Origin: an uncultured bacterium
GTDB taxonomy: Bacteria; CAIJMQ01
Reading direction: 5' to 3'
Length of the DNA stretch: 8,279 nucleotides
Assembly: GCA_903821905.1 (NCBI GenBank)
Contig: CAIJMQ010000095.1
Coordinates: forward strand, 1 to 8,279
The notes under the pieces were generated by a model, which worked only from the letters and a program-made list of their open reading frames with translations, searched no databases and was not told the DNA's origin. Position numbers and translations under genes: made by a program. Position 1 is the stretch's first letter; each line of letters begins with the position of its first letter. Positions 1,257 to 2,566 of the stretch are shown piece after piece.

Positions 1257-2540
1257 TCAGTTTTTATCAACTAAAGAGAAGATGAAATCTGCCTCAGCAA
1301 CTATTTTATCTTCTACCGTAGCAAAAGCATGAACTTTTCCTGTTCTCTGTTTAAGTTTTTGTACTTCGACTTCTATCAATAACTGGTCGCCAGGCAAGAC
1401 TGGTTTTCTAAATTTTGCATTCTCTATTACTGCAAAAAATGGCAATTTGCCTTTACTCTCAGATTTACTCAATAGTAATACTCCAGCTACCTGAGCCATG
1501 GTTTCTAGGGTTAAAACAGCCGGCATTACGGGAAAATCTGGAAAGTGCCCCTGGAAAAAGCTTTCTCCCCCAGTAACTAATTTCAAGCCCACTGCACGCC
1601 TTTTCCCAAGAGAAAGGATTCTGTCTACAAATAGGAAGGGATATCTATGTGGTAGTATTTTTTTTATTTCTCTTATATCCATAAACTCTCCCATATCGCT
1701 TCCTCCTTTTATTATTTTCTTTGCCATTTGTATATTTAAAGCATGGCCACTCTTCATACCGATTATATGAGTATTTTTCAGATGCTTTCCGCTAAGAAAA
1801 AGGTCGCCTATAACATCCAAAGCTTTATGGCGTGCAATCTCGTTAGAAAATCTTAAATCATCATTAAGGATTTTGTCCCCGTCTATTACAACAGCATTCT
1901 CTAAACTTCCACCTTTAATCAAGCCTTTTTCTTTTAGCGAAAGCACTTCCTCTAGAAAGCCAAATGTTCTTGCCGGAGCAATTTGCTCTGCAAAAACTTT
2001 CTCGCCCTCAAAAGATACCGAACAAGTATTTTTGCCAAGTTTTCTGTCAGCAAACTCGAAAGTATAAGTTACATTTCTGGATTTGGCAGGTAGAAGCATG
2101 AGATAAGAGTCATTTTCTTTATTCGAAACTATATATGGGAATGAAGGAGTAAAAGTTTCTTTCTTTTTATTCTGAAAATTTTTCCCAGCTTTTATAAGAA
2201 TATCAGCCCAAGATTTAGAGCTGCCATCTAAAACGGGCGGCTCGGAATTGTCTATTTCTACCAACAGGTTATCAATTTCAACCCCAGCAACCGCTGCCAT
2301 TACATGCTCAATTATATTAATTTTAACGCCATCTTTTTCCAGAGACGTGGACCTATCGCTATGGTTTGCATGCTCGACTTTAGCGGGTATTCTTGGATTA
2401 CCGGGGAGGTCTACTCTGACAAAAACAACTCCTGTATCTTCGGGGGCGCTTTTAAACTTAAGATGCGTAGTTTTCCCAGTATGAAGCCCTATCCCTTCAA
2501 TAGATGCCTCTTTCTTTATACTACACTGTTTTTCTTCCAT
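1257..2540 (-). CDS. lpxC-fabZ: Bifunctional LpxC deacetylase / FabZ dehydratase fusion
   Basis: A single 427-residue frame. Residues 1 to about 275 are LpxC, the Zn-dependent deacetylase of UDP-3-O-acyl-GlcNAc and committed step of lipid A synthesis. Zinc ligands are H79 (in IEHVMAA), H238 and D242 (RHKALD); the base E78, the RTFGF loop (191-195) and catalytic H266 (SGHALN) are present, with numbering almost the same as E. coli. Residues about 283-427 are FabZ, the 3-hydroxyacyl-ACP dehydratase: LPHRYPFLFVDR (296-307), catalytic H332 in GHFP and E346 in LETMAQ, spaced 14 apart as in the family. Two substitutions stand out: A341 where PGVL normally has Gly, and G325 where Asn is usual in VTxNE. 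The linker is very short (about 276-286) and carries a strong internal ribosome-binding site and ATG (M283). LpxC and FabZ compete for the same hydroxyacyl supply, so fusion or co-expression balances lipid A and fatty acids. The SD at the main start is weak (GGTGA, 3 nt spacing). It follows skp by 26 bp. Confidence 0.96.
   Translation of the reverse strand: MEEKQCSIKKEASIEGIGLHTGKTTHLKFKSAPEDTGVVFVRVDLPGNPRIPAKVEHANHSDRSTSLEKDGVKINIIEHVMAAVAGVEIDNLLVEIDNSEPPVLDGSSKSWADILIKAGKNFQNKKKETFTPSFPYIVSNKENDSYLMLLPAKSRNVTYTFEFADRKLGKNTCSVSFEGEKVFAEQIAPARTFGFLEEVLSLKEKGLIKGGSLENAVVIDGDKILNDDLRFSNEIARHKALDVIGDLFLSGKHLKNTHIIGMKSGHALNIQMAKKIIKGGSDMGEFMDIREIKKILPHRYPFLFVDRILSLGKRRAVGLKLVTGGESFFQGHFPDFPVMPAVLTLETMAQVAGVLLLSKSESKGKLPFFAVIENAKFRKPVLPGDQLLIEVEVQKLKQRTGKVHAFATVEDKIVAEADFIFSLVDKN
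1692..1709 (-). promoter_or_regulatory. Internal ribosome-binding site and start codon at the LpxC/FabZ junction
   Basis: On the minus strand AAAGGAGGA (1709-1701) is followed after 6 nt by an in-frame ATG (1694-1692), codon 283 of the fusion. Initiation here would give a 145-residue FabZ beginning MGEFMDIREI, the normal size of the free enzyme (E. coli 151). The SD core is the same as at the true starts of skp and parB in this window, and it is much stronger than the SD of the fusion's own start. The Shine-Dalgarno sequence is read through as Lys-Gly-Gly in the linker, which is not a conserved protein motif. It is either a working internal start or a relic of separate genes. Confidence 0.6.
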
Positions 2541-2566
2541 AAATCACCAGAGAATGGAGAAATTCT

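Follow-up and report, generated by a model that had tools for sequence, protein, structure and literature searches.

A Shine-Dalgarno sequence and in-frame ATG kept at the seam of an LpxC-FabZ fusion suggest a second product, free FabZ

LpxC catalyzes the committed step in making lipid A, FabZ is used throughout fatty-acid elongation, and the balance between the two enzymes is a classic control point. A fusion alone would lock both enzymes at a 1:1 ratio. The lpxC-fabZ gene in the window, by which we mean the whole 8,279-nucleotide stretch of DNA analyzed here, raises the question of whether such a gene specifies one product or two. A sequence-only reading had noted a Shine-Dalgarno sequence (SD), six nucleotides and an in-frame ATG at the LpxC/FabZ boundary, and we confirmed this arrangement on the minus strand at 1709-1692 (AAAGGAGGAAGCGATATG, that is, AAAGGAGGA-AGCGAT-ATG in frame between LpxC and FabZ). 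The coordinates of the relevant features are collected in Table 1.

Table 1. Features of the lpxC-fabZ fusion gene and its seam in the window.
Feature	Position	Strand	Detail
lpxC-fabZ fusion ORF	1257..2540	-	427 aa, 47.2 kDa (47,237 Da), one open frame
Fusion start with weak SD (GGTGATTTATG)	2538..2548	-	-6.9 kcal/mol
LpxC deacetylase domain, aa 5-277	1710..2528	-	PF03331 E 7e-87; TIGR00325 250 bits
Internal Shine-Dalgarno AAAGGAGGA	1701..1709	-	duplex with 16S tail -11.8 kcal/mol
Coil linker, aa 279-286 (GGSDMGEF region)	1683..1706	-	between last LpxC helix and FabZ; Lys278 just before begins AAAGGAGG
Internal in-frame ATG, Met283 of 427, proposed free-FabZ start	1692..1694	-	same place in 6/6 Ratteibacteria-like fusions
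Second in-frame ATG, Met287, usual FabZ N-terminus	1680..1682	-	conserved in 6/6
Predicted free FabZ product	1257..1694, including stop codon	-	145 aa, 16.3 kDa (16,286 Da)

The minus strand of the window carries parA-parB, accD, bamA, skp, lpxC-fabZ, lpxA and lpxI, where parA, parB and bamA are names that we presume from sequence, and the order accD-bamA-skp-lpxC/fabZ-lpxA-lpxI is identical in five relatives as far as their DNA reaches. By domain content, the gene is a bifunctional LpxC-FabZ fusion: both domains are complete, share a single frame and score above their own equivalog cut-offs (TIGR00325, 250 vs 187.25 for the LpxC part; TIGR01750, 166.6 vs 155.15 for the FabZ part, aa 287-422). 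Residues H79, H238, D242, H332 and E346, which we take to be candidate zinc and catalytic residues, are invariant across an alignment of 29 fusions. The AlphaFold2 model (mean pLDDT 89) shows a helix at 266-278 followed by coil to about residue 286, with a pLDDT dip to 71 in the linker; the first FabZ elements span 287-295, and the internal SD-ATG site falls into the coil before them. A false fusion through sequencing error was ruled out, as the reading frame runs uninterrupted through the seam in each of the six species of the phylum that carry the gene. As a separate observation, a frameshift near the 3' end cuts the fabZ part short in the metagenome-assembled genome G004 (L006, L111), which may be an assembly error.

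With a start codon that shares the reading frame of the longer gene and a properly spaced SD (6 nt, or 7 nt if counted from GGAGG), the seam has the makings of an in-frame internal start. FabZ models begin at aa 287-288, so a product starting at Met283 would comprise the whole of FabZ, and translation from this ATG indeed gives the normal-sized protein that had been predicted, of 145 aa and 16,286 Da. The Met287 ATG, at which standalone FabZ usually starts, follows 12 nt after that of Met283; it was rejected as the internal start, since the SD lies about 19 nt off and is too far away to target it. The usual SD applies in these bacteria, because the 16S tail of G002 reads GGATCACCTCCTTT. Also as claimed, the starts of skp and parB use the same SD core, AAGGAGG in both cases, and the start of the fusion itself has a weak SD (GGTGA, -6.9 vs -11.8 kcal/mol at the internal site). 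Across the six fusions, the SD at the upstream start is weak or absent (-6.9, -1.9, +3.4, +2.4, -0.5 and +0.6 kcal/mol, the first value being that of the window); weak-SD starts are frequent in genomes of the phylum, and a weak upstream start alone is not unusual. A search for an internal promoter that would drive a fabZ-only transcript returned no excess of promoter-like matches (6 vs 5.7 +/- 2.8 in shuffles).

Measured against the genomic background, the seam signal is strong. In stretches of G000, the genome of the window, totalling about 195 kb, an SD duplex of -11.8 kcal/mol or stronger occurs at 2 of 794 internal in-frame ATGs, the 1st percentile of SD energies at internal ATGs being about -9.5. 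In G002, where the sample was 300 kb with about 1148 internal ATGs, the junction has -12.2, a value that two further ATGs also reach, one of them again at a domain seam. The backgrounds available for the second family of the phylum (f2) are small and noisier, with 3/64 and 2/45 internal ATGs as strong, junction included. The motif AAGGAGG-N(4-9)-ATG occurs 87 times genome-wide vs 26 times in a reversed control, and among the 22 such sites in the window plus the 195 kb of G000, only the seam site lies in frame and at least 60 codons from either end of its gene.

The searchable phylum, which is Ratteibacteria-like, comprises seven genomes in two families, f1 and f2; the fusion is present in six of them, and the remaining one is 64% complete. 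Among named records, the closest are metagenome-assembled genomes of Candidatus Ratteibacteria and Candidatus Omnitrophota. In all six fusions, which represent just six species, three of them of one genus, a strong SD (-11.3 to -12.4 kcal/mol) lies 4-7 nt upstream of an ATG at the same place, and the equivalents of both Met283 and Met287 are present. The seam reads AAAGGAGGAAGCGATATG in G000, AAAGGAGGAGAAGATATG in G003, GAAGGAGGAGATATG in G002, GGGGAGGAGGAGATATG in G001, and AAGAAGGGGGAAAACATG and AAGAAGGGGGAAAATATG in G005 and G004. In f2, the SD is spelled by other codons than in f1. The f1 genomes G001 and G002 have about a dozen inserted codons directly upstream, yet GGAGGAGATATG with its GGAGG and the ATG are retained. 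This constancy spans considerable divergence. Proteins of f1 and f2 are 48-50% identical, and their 4-fold sites are 19-29% identical with 23-26% expected by composition, indicating synonymous saturation; within its own family, G000 shares 35-42% of these sites, with 27% expected. In the LpxC tree, the six sequences form one clade (98/89) with family branches of 0.42 and 0.75, placing the families more than one substitution per site apart, and the deep forks, which bear on a single vs multiple origin of the fusion, are not resolved. A loss of the SD or the Met in close relatives that keep the fusion had been proposed as evidence against an internal start; this check was run, all six keep both, and the idea was not refuted by it. 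Each of the six genomes encodes one FabA/FabZ-type domain, the fused one, and no separate fabZ was found elsewhere in any of them (G000 being 84% complete). The fusion is the only fatty-acid-elongation dehydratase found in the six genomes.

A conserved signal of this kind might still be a coincidence at the protein level, in which a Lys/Glu-Gly-Gly stretch, conserved or drifting as a flexible spacer, happens to spell an SD, Met283 is an ordinary residue and only the fusion is made. When amino acids were held fixed and codons shuffled synonymously, the observed SD strength was reached in 28-49% of the f1 versions (p 0.28-0.49), as a coincidence would have it; GGAGG arises whenever GGA encodes the first of the two glycines, and about one Gly codon in three is GGA. 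Of the 23 glycines that the four f1 proteins share, only one is encoded by GGA in every species, and an all-GGA column appears in the alignment within the SD. The f2 sequences behaved differently in the same shuffles (p 0.02-0.07), and SD strength and openness of the RNA, taken jointly with amino acids fixed, gave p 0.025-0.16 per species. At the codon level, the evidence with fixed amino acids is thus only suggestive for f2 and not significant for f1, and codons alone do not prove selection. The codon-level conservation test that the sequence-only reading had recommended proved weak, since an SD arises easily from the codons of a Lys/Glu-Gly-Gly linker. However, the linker residues themselves vary between the families (KGGSDM, REGGDM, KKGENM) while SD strength and ATG are kept, so a fair estimate falls somewhere between this conservative test and an unconditioned one. 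Linkers in other phyla are mostly of another kind, and the RNA around the seam is unusually open, which also speaks against a coincidence: from -22 to +18 relative to the ATG, the RNA has almost no structure in any of the six species (dG -1.7 to 0, within the top 2-20% of each gene for openness), and the same place in fusions of other phyla is ordinary, with a median openness percentile of 38-61%. We consider a coincidence of linker composition unlikely.

We extended the comparison to other phyla, counting as a seam start any start codon with an SD dG of -9 or below. Such a start is present in 6/6 fusions of this phylum, 1/16 of the G033 phylum (a TTG), 0/30 of Bacteroidota and 3/16 of others, the three cases being G035, G024 (GGTGGTGACGAAATGATG) and L033 (GGAGGGAACCGTGATG). 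The absence in the G033 phylum is real, since ordinary gene starts there have SDs about as strong as in the present phylum. Most fusions of other phyla thus lack the signal that the relatives with the same gene have kept, and it follows from these counts (Bacteroidota 0/30, G033 phylum 1/16, others 3/16) that the seam signal is lineage-specific and not a general requirement of the fusion. An internal start as a general rule for LpxC-FabZ fusions was rejected on the Bacteroidota and G033 counts. Nor does the earlier argument from stoichiometry, according to which a cell's greater need for FabZ than for LpxC would favour an internal start, apply generally, as Bacteroidota carry the fusion without one. 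In unrelated phyla, L013, L237 (G024 phylum) and L033 show an SD-like stretch with ATG (or ATGATG, GTGATG) at the seam and are possible independent cases.

The same signal is found where the two genes are still apart. In the G036 phylum, a standalone fabZ adjoins lpxC and starts with AAAGGAGG in 3/4 genomes, giving the layout lpxC-TGA-...AAAGGAGG-N7-ATG-fabZ, and this split arrangement is likely to be the ancestral form. In L015 and L201-L206 of that phylum, lpxC and fabZ are adjacent but not fused; those of L015 share a frame, with a single TGA between them, one step from a fusion. The matching split state would also suit a relic, in which the lpxC stop was lost and the old fabZ ribosome-binding site persists unneeded, possibly with some internal initiation left. 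Hotdog-domain fusions, LpxC-FabZ included, have been proposed to arise when the stop codon between neighbouring genes of an operon is lost (PMC516016). A site without use should, however, have decayed, given that the fusion is older than the f1/f2 split, with more than one substitution per site and synonymous saturation between the families; SDs are depleted within the genes of most bacteria (PMC5100845), and fusions of other phyla lost or never had the signal. We therefore hold a mere relic to be quite improbable. The related suggestion of a recent fusion that kept the old fabZ signal is unlikely as well, because all six species keep SD and Met across two families that are about 50% identical and saturated at synonymous sites.

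An SD placed exactly at a domain boundary, in coil between two folded domains, could alternatively act as a pause site that slows elongating ribosomes so that LpxC folds before FabZ, the ATG being incidental. Such a role could be filled without an ATG 4-7 nt downstream and without open RNA, yet both are kept in 6/6, and the domain boundary of most other fusions lacks a comparable site. SD-driven ribosome pausing is itself disputed. We regard this possibility as very improbable.

The signal at the seam is thus present, strong, situated in open RNA and kept in 6/6 species despite their divergence. We consider it probable that the seam is a working in-frame internal start that yields free FabZ besides LpxC-FabZ. 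From one mRNA, initiation at the weak upstream start would yield the 47-kDa LpxC-FabZ, and initiation at the strong linker SD and ATG a normal 16-kDa FabZ. Free FabZ would presumably be more abundant than the fusion, both types of FabZ chain may mix in FabZ oligomers, and the capacity for fatty-acid dehydration could thereby be set apart from the dosage of LpxC. The seam site probably descends from the ribosome-binding site of a once separate fabZ, which, after loss of the lpxC stop codon, would have been held by selection. That translation initiates at the seam in the cell is what we infer from sequence comparison; the two-product interpretation put forward in the sequence-only reading is partly supported and strengthened by the relatives, though not proven.

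If true, the internal start would free the FabZ/LpxC ratio while preserving a channelled or co-regulated fusion. More broadly, domain seams with a strong in-frame SD-ATG offer a simple signature for seeking two-product fusions across genomes. It is conceivable, and we put this forward tentatively, that the phylum has a recurring arrangement in which fused essential enzymes keep a seam SD-ATG that sets the ratio of fused to free product, decoupling FabZ supply from LpxC. Another candidate for a two-product fusion is found in G002: a 591-aa restriction-modification-like fusion (L146:1520-3292, minus strand; an N6 methylase with a weak Methylase_S-like match) has an in-frame AAGGAGG-N8-ATG at its methylase/specificity seam (317 + 274 codons). 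In-frame internal starts as such are known, and it is the place of this putative one, at the LpxC-FabZ seam, that is unexpected; our literature search found no paper describing an internal start for LpxC-FabZ.

Among known systems, the Bacteroidota/Chlorobi LpxC-FabZ (NF009667/PRK13188), of which a bifunctional example has been described in Chlorobium (PMC516016), resembles the fusion in the window in joining an LpxC and a FabZ domain, in that order, in one frame. It differs in that the Bacteroidota fusions have no internal SD and start at the seam (0/30), and the window protein, with a full-length score of 442.9 bits, falls below the curated cut-off of 465 for the NF009667 (PRK13188.1) equivalog. 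Adjacent but separate lpxC and fabZ genes (G036 phylum, Sumerlaeota) have the same order as in the window, and in three of the four G036-phylum genomes AAAGGAGG lies a few nt ahead of the fabZ ATG, but there a stop codon ends lpxC ahead of the fabZ start, a stop that the fusion lacks. A further likeness is found in type III secretion, where SctQ/YscQ/Spa33 is, like lpxC-fabZ, a single gene joining two parts that are separate elsewhere (FliM-like and FliN-like). An internal in-frame start in SctQ gives rise to the C-terminal part, SctQ-C, which works with the full-length protein (PMC4295842; PMC6925163). SctQ is a structural component whose second product was proven by mutation, whereas lpxC-fabZ encodes metabolic enzymes in a different phylum, and its second product is predicted from sequence; the lpxC-fabZ seam has a strong SD, in contrast to the Spa33-CC start, for which no SD could be identified. 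By analogy, SctQ/SctQ-C appears to be the closest proven parallel to the putative start at the lpxC-fabZ seam.
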